Part shown: positions 893 through 23,500 of the stretch, in pieces
Position numbering within the stretch: position 1 is the stretch's first letter
Layout: the number at the start of each line of letters is the position of its first letter
DNA from: Bolinopsis microptera
Taxonomy: Eukaryota; Ctenophora; Tentaculata; Lobata; Bolinopsidae
Assembly: GCF_026151205.1 (NCBI RefSeq)
Contig: NC_087073.1
Span: forward strand, 3,338,501-3,362,000
Reading direction: 5' to 3'
Length of the DNA stretch: 23,500 nt
Notes under the pieces: generated by a model
The model's database searches: none
What the model was told of the DNA's origin: nothing
What the model saw: only the letters and a program-made list of their open reading frames with translations
Made by a program: the position numbers and the translations under genes

Positions 893-2089
893 ATGAGTAT
901 ACTGACACACTCCCCAGAAGATGTCGAAATGTACAAATCAGCCATCGGAGAACTACTCGAACTAGCTAAAACACCCAACATAAAGAAAGTCATCGGTGCT
1001 TATAGTTATTTCGTAAAGTACCAGGCAAACTTCAAGAAGATCAAAGTTTTCCCTGTGGCCGAGCTAGAAGATTGTGCCGTTTTCCTTAAATTGAAGGTGA
1101 GGAATGAAGACGACACAAAGATATTTAAGAACAAAGACATCCTTACTGACAGGATAATCCTGAAGATAGAATCACACTTTGCAGAACAGTGCGACGAATG
1201 TAACGAGAAGTACCAGAACAAGCTCGATGGAGAGATTCCCTATATATCTTGCTATCTCTGCATACAAGGAAGTCACGACTGTGAAGCAGTTTCTGCAAGG
1301 TTTGAGAGACTTAGTCAAGATTCGACCACCCACCTGACTGGGTCAGTTTGGCTTTGTAGGGGATGTAGGCTTAAGAACAAACTGTCGGGCTCTACTAAAC
1401 TACAAAGACGAACAGTATCTTTCGAAGAAGAAGAAAAGGAAAAAGAAGAAGAAAAAGATACTAGCGAGATAAAAGATAACGACAAAAATGATTTTGTTGT
1501 TGTCCAGAAAACTGAGACTGAGAACGATAATCTAACTTCTGAAGAAGATAGACCCAGCCCTCGTCGAGACACACACGAAGCGAGGAGTGAGGAGAAGTCT
1601 CAAGTACAAATTATATGTCCACTGTACAAAAAGCACCAATGCCCCTATGGTGCAAGTGGTCAAACCGAAGTGCAAGGCAAGACCTGTGAGCATGCACACC
1701 CCAGAAGATGCGTTAAGTTCTGTCGCTTTGGAAAAAGAAGAGGCGGTTGCACCAAAGGAAATTCCTGCAAACAGTACCACCCAGTACTGTGTAAGTTTTC
1801 CCTCAAATCTGGCAAATGCCTGAACCCAGACTGTACCTATACACACTTGGTAGGTACAAAGAGACAAAATTATGACGAGGATAGAGATAAAGATACCCGT
1901 CAATACAACCCACAAAGATTCCGCCCTACAGCTGACACATCTAGGATGGACACAAGGCCATCTAGATTGAGAAGAGATAGCACCACATCTGTGGAAAGCC
2001 ATAGTAGTGAAGCATTCAGAACCCCCTTCACTAGAAGACGAATGAACAGTGACCAACAGAGATCCACTGCACTCCAAATGATTTTTTAG
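893..2089 (+). CDS. LINE ORF1 protein with PHD-like zinc cluster and three CCCH zinc fingers
   Basis: This 398-residue protein has the nucleic-acid-binding layout of an ORF1 protein, which in LINEs coats the element RNA. A cysteine/histidine cluster at residues 100-158 (C100, C103, C120, C123, H128, C130, W153, C155, C158) resembles a PHD-type fold. An acidic, lysine-rich linker follows at about 176-200. Three CCCH fingers come next: C242/C250/C265/H269, C277/C286/C292/H296 (classic spacing 8-5-3) and C300/C309/C314/H318 (spacing 8-4-3). The tail is arginine- and serine-rich. The start ATG at 893 is the first in an open frame. The stop follows a run of six T at 2082-2087, and a compatible coiled-coil-like frame opens right after it, so the original protein probably extended to 2322 and this stop is likely an indel artefact of decay. 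Confidence 0.85.
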   Translation: MSILTHSPEDVEMYKSAIGELLELAKTPNIKKVIGAYSYFVKYQANFKKIKVFPVAELEDCAVFLKLKVRNEDDTKIFKNKDILTDRIILKIESHFAEQCDECNEKYQNKLDGEIPYISCYLCIQGSHDCEAVSARFERLSQDSTTHLTGSVWLCRGCRLKNKLSGSTKLQRRTVSFEEEEKEKEEEKDTSEIKDNDKNDFVVVQKTETENDNLTSEEDRPSPRRDTHEARSEEKSQVQIICPLYKKHQCPYGASGQTEVQGKTCEHAHPRRCVKFCRFGKRRGGCTKGNSCKQYHPVLCKFSLKSGKCLNPDCTYTHLVGTKRQNYDEDRDKDTRQYNPQRFRPTADTSRMDTRPSRLRRDSTTSVESHSSEAFRTPFTRRRMNSDQQRSTALQMIF

Positions 2090-2097
2090 AAAAACTT

Positions 2098-2322
2098 ATG
2101 GAGAACATGAAGCAGGGCTTCAGTCAACAACGAGCAGAGATAGGAATTATGAAACAGGGCATAGACACACAGATAGAAGCCCTCTGGAAACAACTGAGCT
2201 CCATCAACCAACTCAGCCTTCCCCAACCACCAACATTCCACCAGTACCAACTACCCAACCAAATGGTACAACCCCCAACTGCCCCGTGGAACAACGGCCA
2301 GAATCAGTGTTCCATCTACTAA
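2098..2322 (+). pseudogene. Probable displaced C-terminal tail of LINE ORF1
   Basis: The frame here differs from ORF1, and it stays open upstream through the T run at 2082-2087, so it joins ORF1 if one base is gained or lost there. The 74 residues start with a charged, glutamine-rich segment with regular hydrophobics (MKQGFSQQRAEIGIMKQG), plausible as a short coiled coil, then a proline/glutamine-rich end. It overlaps the beginning of ORF2 by about 37 bases, a common ORF1/ORF2 arrangement. It could instead be chance open frame; no independent domain is seen. Confidence 0.5.
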
Positions 2323-5300
2323 ATGCGCAGTGTCTATCCCCTAAAGCCACCAGCACGACAAAGTGGAAAATACCCTTCATTTCCGATACCATTCTCAACA
2401 ACAAAAATACTTTCGTGCCATTCATGGGGATAACAGAAACGTGGCTGAAGAGCTACATTACCGATGCACAATTACAGGTAAAAAACTATTCAGTCTTCAG
2501 ATCAGATAGAGACCTGAGAAACAATGGAGGTGCATTGTTATACGTTCACAGCTCGTATATTGTGTCTGACTACAAAAGTTTTGGCGACAAATTCTGTAAT
2601 TGTGTAATCCTCAGGATAGAGGAACTGAACTGTGTTACCGCAACAGTGTATAGACCACCTGACTGCCCGGTGGCTTCGTTCAGATATATATTAGAGCAGA
2701 TTCAATTATTCATTGACTCAAGACCTGAAGAAAATCAGGAGCTCTACGTAACAGGAGATTTCAACTTACCCAATATAGATTGGAAAATATTAACTGCAGA
2801 CAGCTCTCTAGGAAGAGAGGAACAGAGTCGGCGACCCTTCTACTTGACTTCATGTCGAAAAATCTTCTCTCACAAATCATTAACCAGCCGACACGTGGTA
2901 ACAACACCATTGACCTGGTCTTAACCAACCGTGTGCAATATGTTTGTGAGACACAGTCCACAGAAACTAGTTTATCTGACCATAATCTTGTGTCCGTAGT
3001 TCTAGGCTACGACGCCAGAAGAAATGAAAACTACTATCACAATGTGAAAGAAGCAGAGGATTTCACATACTTTAGCCTCAACCTCCACAAAGCAGATCTT
3101 GATGCCATAAACAGAAAACTCATAGATGTTGAATGGAACACACTTCATAATCTGTGCCCACAAGAAGATGACGGATCGATGTTTGCAGAAATCGTCCGAC
3201 TGACAACACTACAGATCTGCTATGCCCATACCCCTCTCAAGGAAACTCCAGCAGCTAATGCCAGGCCCAAAATAAGCCGACCCAGAAGGATATTATACAG
3301 AAAAAAGAGAAAACTCAAGGCACGCATCAAATGTCTTAAGATATTAAACCCAGACTCCCTCTCCTTACCTACCCTAGAACATAAAGTGAATCTGATGGCT
3401 TATGAAATTCAACAAAACATAAGTATGGAGATTCACGGAAGAGAGCGCAAAGCTGTACAATGCGTTAAGAAAAACCCGAAATATTTCTTCAGCTATGCAA
3501 AAAGATTTTCTAAGCTGAAATCAAATATCGGTCCGCTAAGAAGCAGCTCCACAGGAACACTACAACATGATGCTAAGAAAATGGCGGAAATCCTTCAAGA
3601 CCAATATTCTTCAGTGTTTAGTGACCCTGACAACGAGAAGAAAAAAGACACAACCAGCAATATAACATCGCCCTCAGAAAAGTTAACATCATTCAACTTT
3701 AGTAAAGAGGACCTCATCACAGCTATTGATGAAATTGATGCTGACTCAGCAACATCTGATGGGGACATTCCAGCAAGGATACTGAAAGCTTGCAAACAAC
3801 CGCTTTCAGAAGCCCTGATGATCATTTGGGAGAACTCCTTCAGAAATGGTCAAGTTCCTTCAGTCTATAAGGAACAATATATCACACCAGTGTTTAAAAA
3901 AGGAAACAAAACAGACCCGGGAAATTATAGACCTGTCTCGTTAACTTCCCATATGATAAAAGTGTTTGAGAGAGTACTAAGAAAGAACATGGTAGAGCAC
4001 TTGGAGTCGAATCACATATTCTCTAAGAAGCAACACGGCTTCCGGAAAGGTAGAAGCTGTCTTACACAGTTATTACAACACATGGACTACATCCTAAACA
4101 ACTACCTAGACAGCTCCGAAACAGACGTGATATACCTTGATTATGCTAAAGCCTTCGACAAGGTGGATCATTCCCTACTTCTTAAAAAGGTTAAGTCGTA
4201 TGGAATACAAGGTAATCTGTACAAATGGATTGAGCAATTCCTCCTTGATAGGACTCAAACGGTCATTGTTGATGGAAAACATTCTAGGCCAATGCCGGTT
4301 ATCAGTGGAGTACCGCAGGGGACTGTACTTGGTCCAATCCTCTTTCTTCTTTACGTCAACGATCTAGATCAGTACGTGAAAGATTCCAAACTGAGCAGCT
4401 TTGCCGATGATACCCGAATAGGCAGAAAAATATCGACCTTAAACGACTGCAATCTTCTTCAAGAAGATCTAAACAGAATCATACGTTGGTCCGAGGACAA
4501 CAACATGAAACTGCACGAAAACAAGTTTGAACTTGTTTGCTATAGAACACCGGCCTCTAAATCACTTTCAGAGGAGCTGCCATTTATGAGTGACATCACA
4601 AACTACACCACTCCAAATGGATCAGTCATAGAAAGAAGCCCATTAGTGCGTGACCTAGGAGTCAACATGTCCGATGATTACTCCTGGACACCACATATCA
4701 ATATCATGGTTGACAAGGCACGTCAGATGGCATCTTGGGTTCTTGGAGTATTCAAAGACAGGACAACACCTGTTATGCTCCAGCTCTACAAATCCCTGAT
4801 AAGGTCCAGAGTGGAGTACTGCTGCCCGCTTTGGAATCCAAACAAGATCTATGATATCCAGTCTATCGAGAGCATACAACGCCAGTTCACTAGACGAATT
4901 CTAGGGCTCAGAGACACCGATTATTGGAATAGACTGAAGGAACTGAAACTTACATCACTGCAAAGACGCCGAGAACGCTACACCATCATACATCTGTGGA
5001 AAGTTCTCCAGGGTATATGTCCAAATGACCTAGATGTACAGTTCAGAGAGAATGCCAGACTGGGAGTTAAAGTTATACTCCCTTCTCTCACAAAAAAAGC
5101 ATCAGCTGCTGCACGCTCCACCTACGACCACTCATTCGCAGTGAGAGCTGGAAGACTCTGGAATGTTCTCCCCAAAATTGTCAATACTCAAAGGACTTTG
5201 ACAAGCTTCAAGACATCTCTTGGAAACTTCCTAGACACCCTTCCAGACAAGCCCCCTACTCCTGGATACAGTGCAGAAAACTCTAACTCGATAATAGACT

Positions 5301-5335
5301 GGTGCAGTCAAGGAGGTGGTCCGCAGATTGCGTGA
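2286..5335 (+). pseudogene. LINE ORF2: endonuclease plus reverse transcriptase, one frameshift
   Basis: ORF2 nicks target DNA and copies the element RNA. The endonuclease half begins at 2286 with the motifs NAQCLSPK, GITETWLK (catalytic E), YRPP and GDFNLPNIDW. The frame is lost near 2823-2835, where one base seems to be missing, and resumes in the frame that stays open from 2780 to 5335 (851 residues). The first residues of that frame are out-of-frame noise; real protein restarts around 2832 with endonuclease motifs GNNTIDLVLTN and SDHN (catalytic DH). The reverse transcriptase shows KKGNKTDPGNYRPVSLTS, QHGFRKGRSCLTQL, YLDYAKAFDKVDH (D454), SGVPQGTVLGPILF and SFADD (D543, D544), so the polymerase triad is intact. 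A thumb and a C-terminal segment follow. No RNase H is seen. Apart from the one indel no stop interrupts it. Confidence 0.88.
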
Positions 5336-5884: not shown

Positions 5885-8800
5885 CTGAAACAGTTACAAA
5901 AGTTTTTCATTCTAGGTTATATTATTATTATAAAACAGGATCTTACCGACAAAAATGATTCTTAAAAATACCTTAATGCGGTAAACTGTACCCTTGAAAA
6001 AGATTTTCCCAACATCTGTTGCATGCAGCTATATCTCTAATTTCGTTCAATTCATACAAGTTGTCCATTTGCAAATTTCTACTATTTAAATCACTTCTTA
6101 AAACCGATAACAAGTTCATTGTGAGATTGTGAGATTGTGAGATAGGATTTGGGAGATTGGGATTGGGGGATCCAAAGATTGAAAGATTGAAAGATTGGGA
6201 GATTGAAATATTGGGAGATTGGGAGATTGGGATTGTGAGTTTGAGTTCAAGTTTGAGTTCGAATTCGAGTAAATCCTTACCTCATCACAAGATTGGTGAG
6301 TTGAGCTGCTCTGTTAATATCAGCATCTGATAAACCGACCAGTTCAACATTTGTTTTGGAGTTATCTTTGTTTACAATAGACATTTCATCACCCTGAAAT
6401 TAATAAGTTTAGTTGTTTCTCTTCTATTTTCAGCTAACTGAAAAACACCACAAAATTAAATGGACCTAAAGCAGTTGTCCTGTCCTCCACTGGAACTATA
6501 TTAACGTAAAATGCCGTATATATCTAGATACTGGTGAAAAGGTGAACCAAATTTCTTTGGACACGTGCCAACTGCCAGTGTTTCTGGTTTTTAGATAAAC
6601 ATTACTAGAAACTTATTGGTAAGTATCAGGAGGTGACCGGGACATGATTTTAGGCCTGACCGGGACCGGGACCGGGACCGGGATACAAAATGTGACTTGA
6701 CCGGGACCGGGACCGGGACCGGGACTGAGATTATCAATTTACCGTGACCGGGACCGGGACCGGGACCAATAATTTCTGGGATTTCTATCTTACCGGGACC
6801 GGGACCGGGACCAACAATCCAATTTTACCGGGATGACCGGGATGACCGGGATTTGACCGGGATGACCGGGATTTGACCGGGATGACCGGGATGACCGGGA
6901 CCAAAACTGGTATTCTCATATTGAAAGCTGCAACTTTCATTTACATTATAATTGAACAATTTGAATAAGTAATAACTAGAATATTAAATTAGAAAAAACT
7001 TTTAAAAAACCGTCAATATGGGGCATGGGCCTAATGTACTACACCAATAATGTTCATGTACTGATTACTCAAGTTCACCCTCATTCCTCATTCCTCAATC
7101 AATGATCCCTCAAATTATTCAACAGTTTCATTCTCCAATTCCAATTGACAATTGGGCGTAGCCCGAGTTGAAAACTTGATGTTAGTTTGCACTTATGAGT
7201 TATGTAACGATATTAGTTACCTAAACTTGTTTAGCAATTTTAAACATTGTTTTATTTGGCTCAGAGGTTGTTTAAAGATGAAATTCACAATGAATGAAAG
7301 TAAAAACTTAAAATCACAGTGAATGAAATTATGTAAAAGATCCCGGTCAAAATCCCGGCAAATTTGAGTGATTGACCGGGACCGGGACCGGGACCGGGAC
7401 CAAGAATCCTGAATTAACCGGGACCGGGACCGGGATCATAAATCAGCATTTGACCGCGACCGGGACCGCGACCGGGATGAAAAATGTGACTTGACCCGGT
7501 TGACCGGGACCGGGACCGGGACCGGGATAGCTCAAAATTGCCAATCCCGGTACCGGGATTCCCGGTACCGGGATTCCCGGTCACCTCCTGGTAAGTATTA
7601 CTCACAACACCAGTAACGTCAGCGTATCTTTGTCGGAGAACTTCACTAAAACTCAAGCCAGGATTCAGTTTGTGTGATCGTACAAAGCTACCGTGTAGGG
7701 GCTTTGCTTCAAAGTACCTGGAAATGGACATAACTGTGTCAGAAACTCTTGGGAATGCAGCAAATCAGGGTATAGCCCTTTATCAACAATACTTTCGAAA
7801 CTATCACACTGTGAAGTTTTTAAAATAGCTTAATCAGAAGCAATAGCTCTATTTGAACAACACCTGAGTTCAAAAAATACAAATTTCTCACTTGACGTCT
7901 CTATAAGAACCATCATGTTTACCACGCCCCTCGTCTTCCCACTCTACTCCCAACCACTCTCCTGAAACACAAGATTATATTTTTAAAGGTAATAGAATAA
8001 ATCAATTGGCAGGAAAACTGACCTGCTACATATAAGTTAATTTACTGAGTACAGGTCTTCTTTCATACATTTGATTAGTACATTAATTAGTGCTTCCTTT
8101 ATCAGGGCTTTCCCTTAGGTTGTGCATAATTTTGTGGCTCAGAATCTATGAAGAAAAGCGGAAGTAAATTGTTGACAGACAAGACACGACAGTAACGATC
8201 ATTAGACAGAATTTACAATAAATAATAAATAAATCAAATACTATTTCAACAATTGCTAAAATCGTCGAACAAGAAGCAGACTGTTTATACTGCATGCCGC
8301 ATGGACAGAAACTAGGAAGAAGAATTGTTTTCTGACATTAGGCTCAATTATAGGTAGGTTCATTTGAGTTCCTAGTGCATAGTCTAATCTCGGACTCTTC
8401 ATTTGTCTCCCCAGTTCAATTAGTTCGTTACATTTGAGGTTTGTTTTATTGATATAATAAACTTTTTCCCAATATATAAGTTAAATAATCTTATACATGC
8501 TTAGAGCGGTTCAAATTACCATTAGCTGTTCAAATAATTAGAGATCATATCTTATTAGTTGCTCTATAGGGTCAGCAACAACCAAAAAAAGTTTTGACTC
8601 TACGGTGTCGGATAATATTGACTTGGGCCACGCCCATATTTTTCACCAATTTTTAACAAGTAAAATTCTCTAAATCGTCAATTTAGTCATGAAAGAGTAT
8701 GGAAGGAGTTCAAAATGTGCCCACTTTGTATGCTTGTTGAAGGCACGCCCTTAGGGTTCTGTTGGGGGGACTCGCCAAGTGAATCATATCATGTTACACT

Positions 8801-17123: not shown

Positions 17124-17657
17124 ACGTGTCACATGATCATCTTAAACATATGTTGATCTCATTAATCTGGCCTTGTCAGTGATGTGGAGAAATCAATGAG
17201 AAAAGACAATTTTTTCTTGAGAAAAACAATGGATCTCATTAACCTTGTCAGTGATGTTATGGTCCTTGCCGAAACGAAAACCTTGTTATGACGAGCCAGT
17301 TTGTATAGTTTGTATAAAAAGAAACAATAGCTCGTGTTCATATTGACACATTCTCAATCCAAGAAGACCAACGAGATGAACTCTACCAACAACAATGATG
17401 ATTCTGTTTTCAATACATGCAGCTGCACTGAAGAATGCCCTTACAAAATACCACATCTTTGACCAGAGTTCCTTCTCACGGATTAAAAAATAACGATCAG
17501 TAAAGTGTTTTGACCTTAGCACTGCCATTAGTATCTAAGGAAAACGAACAGGTGTCGATGGAGAAACAAATGTGAAAAGAGCAAAAACATTTCACAATAT
17601 AATGGCGTGTTATATGTTATACATAGCTTAATTTACAAGATCAATTCATCGCAGCTC

Positions 17658-17735
17658 GGCGCGGCACAGTAGCGCATCTCGCCGATCTAGCAAGAGAAGC
17701 CTCATTGAGTGCGCGGCGCGGCACAGTAATGCATC
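17658..17735. repeat. GC-rich direct repeat containing GGCGCGGCACAGTA
   Basis: A 21 bp word beginning GGCGCGGCACAGTA and ending GCATC occurs at 17658-17678 and 17715-17735 with two mismatches. It lies in a GC-rich island otherwise unlike the AT-rich surroundings. Confidence 0.7.
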
Positions 17736-18047
17736 GAGCTACAATGCATAGCTAACTAAAAGGTCGCTAGTACATATTAACTTTTATATAGTGTAGCGAC
17801 CTATCAGGTCTACACTGGTTTGGCAACAATAATTGGCATATTTTCAGTCACGAAATTTAAATTTAATTAAGAGGAAGTGTGTAACTTGTAAACGAGTCCG
17901 CTCGCGCACAGTGCAGTAGCGAAACGTACGTAACTGTGGGCCGCCCCTCGCTATATTTTTGCAGCCCCCTGTCCAGTGTCCATATTTAATATCATAACTC
18001 AGCGCGCGCTACTTCGTAGCACTTACCTATAATATTTCGAGAAGAAA

Positions 18048-18063: not shown

Positions 18064-18250
18064 TATAATTCGATGAAATTTAAACAAGTAACATCCGTCA
18101 ACCACGCCCCCCTCCTCAATTTTTTTAAATATCTTCATTTTAGACTTTAGCTTAGACAATACGGTTGTAAAATATTTGTTTGAGTGTATTTTAGAGCAAA
18201 ACGCGCATTTTGCTAGTACTACACAGGATCGAGGAGCAAATTGCAAAGAA

Positions 18251-18330
18251 ACTGCCACAAACTGCTACAAACTGCTACTAACTGCTACAAACTGGCACTA
18301 ACTGCCACAAACTGCTACTAACTGCTGCAA
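18251..18330 (+). repeat. Decamer array, eight copies of ACTGCYACAA
   Basis: Exactly eight in-phase 10 bp units (ACTGCCACAA, ACTGCTACAA, ACTGCTACTA, ACTGGCACTA and similar) stand 43 bases before the first satellite unit. The same decamer in the opposite orientation borders the other end of the satellite array. Confidence 0.92.
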
Positions 18331-18373
18331 TCTCGCCCACGCATTCGCTTAACGGGTGATACTCGTAAAATAT

Positions 18374-18553
18374 CCCAGGAACCCTGACCGGATGGGGCTT
18401 AACTTTGAAAGTAAAAGAGTTGGAGACTTCCGGTTTTTTGTAACATGTTCCTCTTTTAAAAGTAACGTTACCTCTCCAGGAGGAAAATTCAAGACAACGT
18501 AATTGTTGAGTTATCTCAAAATCTCCAGAAAAGTCCCCTTTCGGGCCGATCAA
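18374..18553 (-). other. 60-codon open frame conserved in every satellite unit (unit 1 copy), coding status doubtful
   Basis: On the minus strand each X holds an ATG and 60 open codons reaching exactly to the X boundary. The product starts MIGPKGDFSGDFEITQQLRC and ends HPVRVPG, then runs 13 codons into Y in complete units. Because units are nearly identical, the repetition of the frame is no evidence for coding. No domain, signal peptide or membrane segment is recognised. Confidence 0.25.
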
Positions 18554-21500
18554 AAGTTTGCAACTTTAACTTTGCGGATTCCTGTACTCTGGTTGGCTGA
18601 ATTGTGTCACGTGGTAGCTGCTTGAACATTGGAAAGCGCCACGCGTGCAAATCATGCTTGTTGTTGCGCGCGAGGTCAAGCCGTCTGTTTAAATTAAACC
18701 AACTCTAGTACCACCACCAGCCGGTAACTTTTCCTGGGTAAGAAGTAACCAATTAGGGCTACTAAGTGCCGAACACAAGGATATTTCGTATTCGGATCAT
18801 ATGCCTGCAGGCTGTCTGTCGCTTAAGACCATGGTCGCTCTTAACTGAGCGGTAAGTGACGTTAAGTGAGACCGTGAGCACCACTTCTTGCCAATTTGCT
18901 TTTGAATTACGGCCCAATCATGAAGTTAAACAGTACAAGTTGTGTTTTAACGGCAAAATACAGCGAATTCTAGCCCTTGAAAGTTGTAGGTTTGGAAGAT
19001 CAATACGGCTGCTTTAATTCTTAAAAGTCTTAAGTTAGAACGGCCAAAACACCCTACTCGGCGTCCCCAGGAACCCTGACCGGATGGGGCTTAACTTTGA
19101 AAGTAAAAGAGTTGGAGACTTCCGGTTTTTTGTAACATGTTCCTCTTTTAAAAGTAACGTTACCTCTCCAGGAGGAAAATTCAAGACAACGTAATTGTTG
19201 AGTTATCTCAAAATCTCCAGAAAAGTCCCCTTTCGGGCCGATCAAAAGTTTGCAACTTTAACTTTGCGGATTCCTGTACTCTGGTTGGCTGAATTGTGTC
19301 ACGTGGTAGCTGCTTGAACATTGGAAAGCGCCACGCGTGCAAATCATGCTTGTTGTTGCGCGCGAGGTCAAGCCGTCTGTTTAAATTAAACCAACTCTAG
19401 TACCACCACCAGCCGGTAACTTTTCCTGGGTAAGAAGTAACCAATTAGGGCTACTAAGTGCCGAACACAAGGATATTTCGTATTCGGATCATATGCCTGC
19501 AGGCTGTCTGTCGCTTAAGACCATGGTCGCTCTTAACTGAGCGATAAGTGACGTTAAGTGAGACCGTGAGCACCACTTCTTGCCAATTTGCTTTTGAATT
19601 ACGGCCCAATCATGAAGTTAAACAGTACAAGTTGTGTTTTAACGGCAAAATACAGCGAATTCTAGCCCTTGAAAGTTGTAGGTTTGGAAGATCAATACGG
19701 CTGCTTTAATTCTTAAAAGTCTTAAGTTAGAACGGCCAAAACACCCTACTCGGCGTCAGCCAGCTGCACCCAGGAACCCTGACCGGATGGGGCTTAACTT
19801 TGAAAGTAAAAGAGTTGGAGACTTCCGGTTTTTTGTAACATGTTCCTCTTTTAAAAGTAACGTTACCTCTCCAGGAGGAAAATTCAAGACAACGTAATTG
19901 TTGAGTTATCTCAAAATCTCCAGAAAAGTCCCCTTTCGGGCCGATCAAAAGTTTGCAACTTTAACTTTGCGGATTCCTGTACTCTGGTTGGCTGAATTGT
20001 GTCACGTGGTAGCTGCTTGAACATTGGAAAGCGCCACGCGTGCAAATCATGCTTGTTGTTGCGCGCGAGGTCAAGCCGTCTGTTTAAATTAAACCAACTC
20101 TAGTACCACCACCAGCCGGTAACTTTTCCTGGGTAAGAAGTAACCAATTAGGGCTACTAAGTGCCGAACACAAGGATATTTCGTATTCGGATCATATGCC
20201 TGCAGGCTGTCTGTCGCTTAAGACCATGGTCGCTCTTAACTGAGCGGTAAGTGACGTTAAGTGAGACCGTGAGCACCACTTCTTGCCAATTTGCTTTTGA
20301 ATTACGGCCCAATCATGAAGTTAAACAGTACAAGTTGTGTTTTAACGGCAAAATACAGCGAATTCTAGCCCTTGAAAGTTGTAGGTTTGGAAGATCAATA
20401 CGGCTGCTTTAATTCTTAAAAGTCTTAAGTTAGAACGGCCAAAACACCCTACTCGGCGTCAGCCAGCTGCACCCAGGAACCCTGACCGGATGGGGCTTAA
20501 CTTTGAAAGTAAAAGAGTTGGAGACTTCCGGTTTTTTGTAACATGTTCCTCTTTTAAAAGTAACGTTACCTCTCCAGGAGGAAAATTCAAGACAACGTAA
20601 TTGTTGAGTTATCTCAAAATCTCCAGAAAAGTCCCCTTTCGGGCCGATCAAAAGTTTGCAACTTTAACTTTGCGGATTCCTGTACTCTGGTTGGCTGAAT
20701 TGTGTCACGTGGTAGCTGCTTGAACATTGGAAAGCGCCACGCGTGCAAATCATGCTTGTTGTTGCGCGCGAGGTCAAGCCGTCTGTTTAAATTAAACCAA
20801 CTCTAGTACCACCACCAGCCGGTAACTTTTCCTGGGTAAGAAGTAACCAATTAGGGCTACTAAGTGCCGAACACAAGGATATTTCGTATTCGGATCATAT
20901 GCCTGCAGGCTGTCTGTCGCTTAAGACCATGGTCGCTCTTAACTGAGCGATAAGTGACGTTAAGTGAGACCGTGAGCACCACTTCTTGCCAATTTGCTTT
21001 TGAATTACGGCCCAATCATGAAGTTAAACAGTACAAGTTGTGTTTTAACGGCAAAATACAGCGAATTCTAGCCCTTGAAAGTTGTAGGTTTGGAAGATCA
21101 ATACGGCTGCTTTAATTCTTAAAAGTCTTAAGTTAGAACGGCCAAAACACCCTACTCGGCGTCAGCCAGCTGCACCCAGGAACCCTGACCGGATGGGGCT
21201 TAACTTTGAAAGTAAAAGAGTTGGAGACTTCCGGTTTTTTGTAACATGTTCCTCTTTTAAAAGTAACGTTACCTCTCCAGGAGGAAAATTCAAGACAACG
21301 TAATTGTTGAGTTATCTCAAAATCTCCAGAAAAGTCCCCTTTCGGGCCGATCAAAAGTTTGCAACTTTAACTTTGCGGATTCCTGTACTCTGGTTGGCTG
21401 AATTGTGTCACGTGGTAGCTGCTTGAACATTGGAAAGCGCCACGCGTGCAAATCATGCTTGTTGTTGCGCGCGAGGTCAAGCCGTCTGTTTAAATTAAAC

Positions 21501-22580
21501 CAACTCTAGTACCACCACCAGCCGGTAACTTTTCCTGGGTAAGAAGTAACCAATTAGGGCTACTAAGTGCCGAACACAAGGATATTTCGTATTCGGATCA
21601 TATGCCTGCAGGCTGTCTGTCGCTTAAGACCATGGTCGCTCTTAACTGAGCGGTAAGTGACGTTAAGTGAGACCGTGAGCACCACTTCTTGCCAATTTGC
21701 TTTTGAATTACGGCCCAATCATGAAGTTAAACAGTACAAGTTGTGTTTTAACGGCAAAATACAGCGAATTCTAGCCCTTGAAAATTGTAGGTTTGGAAGA
21801 TCAATACGGCTGCTTTAATTCTTAAAAGTCTTAAGTTAGAACGGCCAAAACACCCTACTCGGCGTCAACCAGCTGCACCCAGGAACCCTGACCGGATGGG
21901 GCTTAACTTTGAAAGTAAAAGAGTTGGAGACTTCCGGTTTTTTGTAACATGTTCCTCTTTTAAAAGTAACGTTACCTCTCCAGGAGGAAAATTCAAGACA
22001 ACGTAATTGTTGAGTTATCTCAAAATCTCCAGAAAAGTCCCCTTTCGGGCCGATCAAAAGTTTGCAACTTTAACTTTGCGGATTCCTGTACTCTGGTTGG
22101 CTGAATTGTGTCACGTGGTAGCTGCTTGAACATTGGAAAGCGCCACGCGTGCAAATCATGCTTGTTGTTGCGCGCGAGGTCAAGCCGTCTGTTTAAATTA
22201 AACCAACTCTAGTACCACCACCAGCCGGTAACTTTTCCTGGGTAAGAAGTAACCAATTAGAGCTACTAAGTGCCGAACACAAGGATATTTCGTATTCGGA
22301 TCATATGCCTGCAGGCTGTCTGTCGCTTAAGACCATGGTCGCTCTTAACTGAGCGGTAAGTGACGTTAAGTGAGACCGTGAGCACCACTTCTTGCCAATT
22401 TGCTTTTGAATTACGGCCCAATCATGAAGTTAAACAGTACAAGTTGTGTTTTAACGGCAAAATACAGCGAATTCTAGCCCTTGAAAGTTGTAGGTTTGGA
22501 AGATCAATACGGCTGCTTTAATTCTTAAAAGTCTTAAGTTAGAACGGCCAAAACACCCTACTCGGCGTCAACCAGCTGCA

Positions 22581-22945
22581 CCCAGGAACCCTGACCGGAT
22601 GGGGCTTAACTTTGAAAGTAAAAGAGTTGGAGACTTCCGGTTTTTTGTAACATGTTCCTCTTTTAAAAGTAACGTTACCTCTCCAGGAGGAAAATTCAAG
22701 ACAACGTAATTGTTGAGTTATCTCAAAATCTCCAGAAAAGTCCCCTTTCGGGCCGATCAAAAGTTTGCAACTTTAACTTTGCGGATTCCTGTACTCTGGT
22801 TGGCTGAATTGTGTCACGTGGTAGCTGCTTGAACATTGGAAAGCGCCACGCGTGCAAATCATGCTTGTTGTTGCGCGCGAGGTCAAGCCGTCTGTTTAAA
22901 TTAAACCAACTCTAGTACCACCACCAGCCGGTAACTTTTCCTGGG
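22581..22945. mobile_element. Unit X, 365 bp candidate inverted-repeat element (type copy at the array end)
   Basis: Left end CCCAGGAACCCTGACCGG and the complement of the right end, CCCAGGAAAAGTTACCGG, agree at 17 of the first 22 positions. The whole array begins and ends precisely at these ends, and the second array at 23270 begins at the same base. No target duplication is convincing and no superfamily can be assigned, so calling it a mobile element is an inference. Confidence 0.45.
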
Positions 22946-23269
22946 ATCTGTTCCATATATTGGAACCGTCGACGAGTCCAACTCGGCGCACGTCCTGGTA
23001 GGTTATAAACCTACAAGCATTCGCGCGCCGTTTGCAGCAGTTAGTAGCAGTTTGTAGTATAGCAGTCAGTGCCAGTTTGTAGCAGTTAGTGCCAGTTTGC
23101 GGCAGTTTGTAGCAGTTGCGCGCGGCGTGCGTTGCGCAGTAAAGACACGAGCGCGACTGCTACAAACTGCTAGTAGTATTTGTGTTGATTGTTATTATTA
23201 ACTATTAATTAAGTTACGTTAGGTTGAAATATTTGCTTAAAACACTACTAAATGTTGTTTTTAAATATT
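22946..23269. other. Spacer between two satellite arrays, rich in hairpins
   Basis: Directly after the array come three small hairpins: GTTCCA-TATAT-TGGAAC (22950-22966), CGAGT-CCA-ACTCG (22973-22985) and GTAGGTT-ATA-AACCTAC (22998-23014). An inverted decamer array (23031-23115) and a GC-rich stretch follow, then AT-rich sequence up to the next array. No coding region. Confidence 0.75.
23031..23115 (-). repeat. Decamer array, inverted relative to 18251-18330
   Basis: About eight units such as TTTGTAGCAG, TTAGTGCCAG and TTTGCGGCAG, the reverse complement of the ACTGCYACAA family, with a 5 bp irregularity at 23056-23065. A single unit in the other orientation at 23156-23170 can pair with 23102-23116 to give a 15 bp stem. 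Confidence 0.9.
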
Positions 23270-23500
23270 CCCAGGAACCCTGACCGGATGGGGCTTAACT
23301 TTGAAAGTAAAAGAGTTGGAGACTTCCGGTTTTTTGTAACATGTTCCTCTTTTAAAAGTAACGTTACCTCTCCAGGAGGAAAATTCAAGACAACGTAATT
23401 GTTGAGTTATCTCAAAATCTCCAGAAAAGTCCCCTTTCGGGCCGATCAAAAGTTTGCAACTTTAACTTTGCGGATTCCTGTACTCTGGTTGGCTGAATTG
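23270..23500. repeat. Start of a second satellite array (X unit, cut by the window edge)
   Basis: Starts with CCCAGGAACC and matches the first 231 bases of unit X. It is in the same orientation as the first array and begins at the same base of the unit, but with different left-flanking DNA. Confidence 0.92.

Follow-up and report, generated by a model that had tools for sequence, protein, structure and literature searches.

How does a tandem array come to begin and end exactly at the two ends of one segment of its own repeat unit? This question is raised by an array on the plus strand of the window, by which we mean the whole 23,500-bp stretch analyzed (contig C2:3338501-3362000 of a 264.65-Mb genome). 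The array is made of tandem head-to-tail units of two segments, X and Y, and thus qualifies as satellite DNA; its formula is X(YX)6 and it spans 18374-22945. The first-pass annotation had placed its limits at the ends of X, and this placement was upheld: there are seven X copies of 365 bp each, the first starting at 18374 and the last stopping at 22945, within TTTTCCTGGG. Consecutive copies (starts at 18374, 19066, 19769, 20472, 21175, 21878, and 22581) lie 692 bp apart once and 703 bp apart five times. The length of 338 bp given earlier for Y holds in five of the six copies in the window, the first Y being only 327 bp long because the 11 bp adjoining the second X are absent. AT lies on both flanks, in the target context TAAAATAT on the left and ATCTGTTCC on the right. 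A second array, already reported to open with the start of X at 23270, does so and resolves as X(YX)2, running past the window edge to C2:3363542 with TT on both flanks. The features of the window are as follows.

18374..22945, plus strand: whole array, X(YX)6
18374..18738, plus strand: X copy 1, 365 bp, with inverted-repeat arms at 18374-18395 and 18717-18738
18739..19065, plus strand: Y copy 1, 327 bp, with 11 bp missing on the side of X copy 2; locus L013 shares this short junction
19066..19430, plus strand: X copy 2
19431..19768, plus strand: Y copy 2, 338 bp
19769..20133, plus strand: X copy 3
20134..20471, plus strand: Y copy 3
20472..20836, plus strand: X copy 4
20837..21174, plus strand: Y copy 4
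21175..21539, plus strand: X copy 5
21540..21877, plus strand: Y copy 5
21878..22242, plus strand: X copy 6
22243..22580, plus strand: Y copy 6
22581..22945, plus strand: X copy 7
18372..18373, no strand: AT target duplication, left copy
22946..22947, no strand: AT target duplication, right copy
22948..23016, minus strand: host repeat W, right part; joins the left flank (~18343-18373) in array-free copies of W
23270..23500, plus strand: left end of the second array, X(YX)2, whose right end is at C2:3363542; left TT copy at 23268-23269

Considered alone, X has the properties of a MITE, with terminal inverted repeats, a target duplication of fixed length, and a short, non-coding sequence. Its termini, CCCAGG..CCTGGG (CCCAGGAA type), match each other in inverted orientation at 17 of 22 positions, confirming the earlier description, and a score of 17 was reached in one of 200,000 shuffles. 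A stretch free of stop codons reaches at most 64 codons in X and, across two X-Y units placed end to end, 77 codons. Allowing up to two mismatches, the genome contains 195 matches to the X left end, 242 to the X right end, and 143 to the middle of Y; our match lists comprised the first 100 places for each, so later contigs are under-sampled. In all, 108 loci were fetched for comparison, and an array on contig C13 was taken from outside these lists. Solo X copies with both ends had an identical flanking dinucleotide in 24 of 30 cases among the fetched loci. With same-site duplicates removed, a 2-bp duplication was found at 21 of 26 distinct sites (all except L025, L026, L027, L063, and L089), compared with 64 of 650 mismatched pairings. 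The duplicated dinucleotides were TA, TT, AA, TG, CA, AT, GC, TC, AC, CG, and CT; since they vary, the 2-bp duplication has no fixed target. The supposition that X is mobile is thus supported by its precise ends and fixed 2-bp target duplication as a solo element. No match to the exact X left end was found in viral contigs. At L049 (oriented positions 1313-1349), a 37-bp mini-X lies inside Y, with both X ends, almost no interior, and a few Y bases replaced.

A duplication of 2 bp also surrounds whole arrays. Composites with intact outer X ends carried it in 25 of 25 cases (24 of 24 without one shared site), while mismatched pairings agreed in 74 of 552 (13%). Four further intact-ended arrays carried it as well, giving 29 of 29 fetched arrays, which range from 1 to 21 Y units and up to ~15 kb. 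This count left out 29 loci incomplete at either outer end and, unless added by hand, L006, L034, L040, L085, L086, L088, L090, and L092; the starts of L013 and L064 were placed by hand, and L043 has intact outer ends with part of its interior missing. The longest array, on contig C7, has 22 X copies in 15.1 kb with CT on both flanks, and the C13 array has 15 X copies between two GC dinucleotides and is interrupted by ~5.2 kb of other DNA. Two element copies, a passenger, and one duplication around the whole make a composite transposon, and all 29 arrays have this structure. In at least eight copies of W that lack the array, the site is uninterrupted with a single AT; an X-Y-X locus (L059) has uninterrupted paralogues too, including one within the window (17628-17744). 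The exact X ends and the surrounding target duplication suggest that the array came in, or began, as a transposon; random growth of repeats seems not to account for it. Tandem 10-bp repeats (AAACTGCTAC type) at 18249-18330 and 23036-23117 flank the array in inverted orientation, with 89% complementarity over 56 nt, as if the array lay inside another inverted-repeat element, W.

We consider it likely that X(YX)n is a non-autonomous composite DNA transposon, mobilized through its outer X ends, with exchange between X copies setting their number. The basis for this explanation is the exact ends, the duplications, the uninterrupted paralogous sites, and an old subfamily of the same plan. X itself would be a small, non-coding, MITE-like cut-and-paste DNA transposon of ~365 bp whose 2-bp target duplication varies in sequence. 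A passenger Y between two X copies in direct orientation would make up X-Y-X, which would enter a site as one element by its outermost X ends with a transposase acting in trans; insertion of this kind would set the array limits at X ends and leave one duplication for the whole. Exchange among X copies, whether by unequal recombination, by conversion, or through copies made from an excised unit, may then have turned X-Y-X into X(YX)n and homogenized the copies, and loss of one X from a composite would give X-Y with the target dinucleotide kept. The order of transposition and growth, as well as the first formation of X-Y-X, are parts of this explanation that we infer. The flanks of X-Y loci and the likeness of X copies within a locus, both described below, also favor the explanation. 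Counting against it are the Y-anchored loci that depart from the X-to-X plan, the Y-X loci, the five solo sites without a duplication, the four X-Y-X loci whose two X copies are not each other's closest relatives, a Z satellite array that stops at an X with no duplication, and the lack of an autonomous partner among the matches listed.

Loci that depart from the X-to-X rule were assessed in a Y-anchored census of 41 loci, sorted by hand from 100 listed of the 143 Y-middle matches. Twenty-three start and stop at X with a duplication, and in 18 an X is missing from one end or both. These 18 comprise seven X-Y loci (L008, L010, L049, L056, L060, L073, and L107), two Y-X loci (L017 and L108), two with a truncated right X (L039 and L048), a Y fragment next to a diverged X (L051), one left unclassified (L071), three in which X is absent (L038, L057, and L058), and two in which Y pieces are part of other satellites (L054/L061 and L074). 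Most of them look like X loss or truncation. The first-pass annotation would have taken array ends at many monomer positions, or X never occurring without Y, as refuting its reading. The first was encountered in the 18 of 41 loci without X at both ends, and the second was not, as solo X copies exist. X-free Y loci, which it had suggested looking for, were found at L038, L057, and L058, with Y pieces in other satellites at L061 and L074. The L061 piece lies within a ~691-bp tandem unit (C5:19740601-19743500) and the L074 piece within a ~829-bp tandem unit (C7:17911900-17915300), neither containing X. At L057, on C7, Y occurs alone next to 374 bp of sequence repeated, identical and inverted, ~2 kb off (L057, L081, and L082); in a C9 paralogue of its flanks, Y is absent.

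The flanks of the X-Y loci appear to retain a trace of a second target copy. The left dinucleotide recurs within 6 nt past the end of Y in 6 of 6 loci (L008, L010, L011, L056, L060, and L073) and in 4 of 30 controls, the 6-nt limit having been chosen once the flanks were known. At L107 and L049 it is found at offsets 0 and 1, so that in all eight X-Y loci without a right X (8/8) the target dinucleotide lies 0-3 bp past Y. We read these loci as composites whose right X may have been lost by excision, the retained dinucleotide being like an excision footprint. Y-X loci showed no excess of retained duplication (2 of 8, vs 18 of 56 in the control); L108, with TA on both sides, would raise the tally to 3 of 9. 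In L037, TG stands where X would be in one type of Y-Y junction.

The alternative that survives best is a version of the composite-transposon explanation, differing in the order of events alone: X or X-Y-X would be all that transposes, and long arrays would have grown in place by unequal exchange without ever being mobile. We lean slightly towards this order. All intermediates exist, from X-Y-X up to 22 X copies, and copies are more alike within an array than between loci. Within 20 multi-X loci, X copies differed by 0.0028 on average, against a mean of 0.0305 and a minimum of 0.0193 in 500 shuffles of locus labels, a contrast that is overstated because the shuffle ignores subfamilies. Every X has its nearest or tied-nearest relative at home in 16 of the 20 loci; the exceptions (L013, L041, L047, and L059) are all X-Y-X, making up four of the nine X-Y-X loci, and in them the partner X is not the nearest for both copies. 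With gaps counted, 78 of 89 variable X columns within loci were private. In the C7 and C13 arrays the X copies at the edges are unlike the inner ones, and the second window array has no Y variant other than that of unit five in the first array, as if a short piece had moved and then doubled; both observations are predicted by unequal exchange. That X(YX)n of up to ~15 kb was instead inserted whole, with a transposase working on the X ends at its outer limits, each array being rebuilt from a single X-Y template, seems improbable to us.

Two further ideas about the X copies were set aside. Homogenization specific to X was hinted at by the window, where with gaps ignored X has no variable sites in 10 copies and Y has four in eight copies; it was dropped since X is the more variable segment in the C7 array (X 5, Y 1) and the C13 array (X 6, Y 3). 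The other idea was that recombination might have left behind all solo X copies. These were weakly separated from the composite ones (same-type nearest neighbor 0.667 vs 0.492, reached by 23 of 2000 shuffles; 45 loci), which is not decisive.

Another order would put the satellite first, with X entering a pre-existing tandem Y, the X-Y unit being amplified, and X-bounded pieces being mobilized afterwards. A precedent of sorts is found at L040, where five X copies lie inside a satellite, Z, with a 353-bp unit (L040 and L062, C1:8853900-8870000). X sits at one position in some Z units, TA is found on both sides of X in four of the five places, and the X-Z unit is repeated; the fifth X closes the Z array and is followed by TT, with no duplication there. 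X inside Z offers another possible route to X-Y arrays. Y-Y junctions, present at L037, L038, and L061, would fit a satellite origin, although they may also be scars of X excision. We nevertheless regard this order as unlikely: a long X-free Y array was not found among the fetched loci, and there is no duplication around X at X-Y junctions. X, Y, and Z have no detectable relation to one another; Z and the old Y have 63 bp in common, at 81%.

An older subfamily (L091, L093, L094, and L095) has the same X-Y-X plan, with a 365-bp X and duplications of TT, TT, TG, and CT, respectively; its Y is longer, measuring 466 bp in L091. It differs from the window sequences by ~0.295 in X and ~0.25 in Y. 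The presence of this plan in a subfamily diverged by 25-30% suggests a long association, and judging from these sequences X and Y have probably been partners for a long time. At L052 (C3:7223400-7225500), a diverged X (0.158) accompanies a near-modern Y (0.032); this difference indicates that exchange has occurred and suggests that Y may have been swapped between X lineages. The earlier proposal, in which the satellite was seeded by two X copies inserted separately on either side of a single-copy Y, gains no direct support: the fetched loci include no Y progenitor in unrearranged form, X-Y-X is already present in the old subfamily, and the X copies inside Z point to another possible route.

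A retroelement of LTR or TRIM type, with X as its terminal repeat, would account for the direct repeats at the ends, the existence of solo copies and of tandem arrangements, and the near-identity of X copies in many loci. LTR elements have TG..CA ends and target duplications of 4-6 bp, whereas X has inverted CCCAGG..CCTGGG ends and a 2-bp duplication, and we judge this origin very improbable. A duplication of 5 bp is given for LTR elements in the portion of PMC11899658 available to us. An ordinary satellite formed by random exchange, with its X ends due to coincidence or assembly error, is scarcely credible given 29 arrays with a surrounding duplication at many sites, a 13% control, and uninterrupted paralogous sites, even if repeats are often misassembled and some Y loci end elsewhere.

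Among the matches listed in our genome searches, there was no autonomous partner with X ends, nor any transposase. L006, with the first 32 bp of X followed by other DNA, was rejected as a candidate, having no matching right end and no frame above 83 aa. A degenerate X-end pattern gave 377 matches, and the 11 regions fetched from 100 listed proved to be X copies, the old subfamily, or intermediates. Six of these 11 regions were scanned for open frames; the longest frame, of 255 codons in L086, had no Pfam match and lay inside other high-copy repeats, and frames in L092 and L085 had no Pfam match. PF02992 (Transposase_21) had no match in this genome and none in 14 control genomes. The ends of CACTA (CMC/EnSpm) elements begin with CACTA or CAC, and X ends begin with CCCAGG instead. 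Retrozyme units contain a hammerhead ribozyme; scanning the window and seven loci with Rfam gave no match at the gathering score, and three weak matches in 18200-20500 (E 0.59-0.89) were taken as chance. Helitrons and Helentrons make no target duplication and are ruled out by the 2-bp duplication. This lack is also described for Helitrons in the part of PMC9659126 at hand. No retroelement coding was found in X-Y.

That satellites arise from transposons is accepted, the step from element to array being usually inferred from worn remnants. Bacterial composite transposons consist of two insertion sequences around a passenger, and the present composites are like them in carrying a passenger between two element copies with one duplication around the whole; they differ in that X is non-coding and the composite reaches many units. 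In coral, CMITE elements are full-length MITEs in tandem, with similar copies as here, in arrays ascribed to replication slippage; the accessible sections of that paper (PMC2872659) mention no array delimited by element ends and enclosed in a single target duplication. The Xenopus elements miDNA4 and Xstir are MITEs with internal satellites and thus likewise non-autonomous inverted-repeat elements carrying a tandem repeat, which in the excerpts available lies within one pair of ends, whereas in the present arrays a complete element with inverted ends lies in every monomer (PMC12628747; PMC9659126). Tandem LTR elements and TRIMs, as presented in the available portion of PMC11899658, have the same repeat-internal-repeat-internal-repeat order, a single outer duplication, and solo repeats, with two tandem elements typical; X differs in its inverted ends, its 2-bp duplication, and arrays of up to 21 units. 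Tribolium TCAST transposon-like elements are dispersed satellite sequences with inverted ends and target duplications, in which the inverted ends of a single element are built from parts of the satellite; element-bounded arrays are not described in the sections accessible (PMC3411249). In a limited body of literature, of which parts were available, we found no array of whole inverted-ended elements with one outer duplication, which does not imply absence from print.

Here, a single genome contains exact ends, duplications, uninterrupted sites, and the intermediates (solo X, X-Y-X, longer arrays, and X-Y losses), and an older subfamily repeats the plan seen in the window arrays. The dispersal of satellites by transposition, and changes in array length before versus after insertion, can now be tested. 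If whole arrays did move, they would represent a DNA transposon with an LTR-like life cycle and a tandem body of variable length.

Elsewhere in the window, LINE-like reading frames occupy 2082-5335, with an RVT_1 reverse transcriptase match (E 2.5e-33) in 2729-5335 and an endonuclease match, weaker than the Pfam cut-off, in 2082-2924. Several short tandem repeats of GACCGG type are found at 6657-7581.
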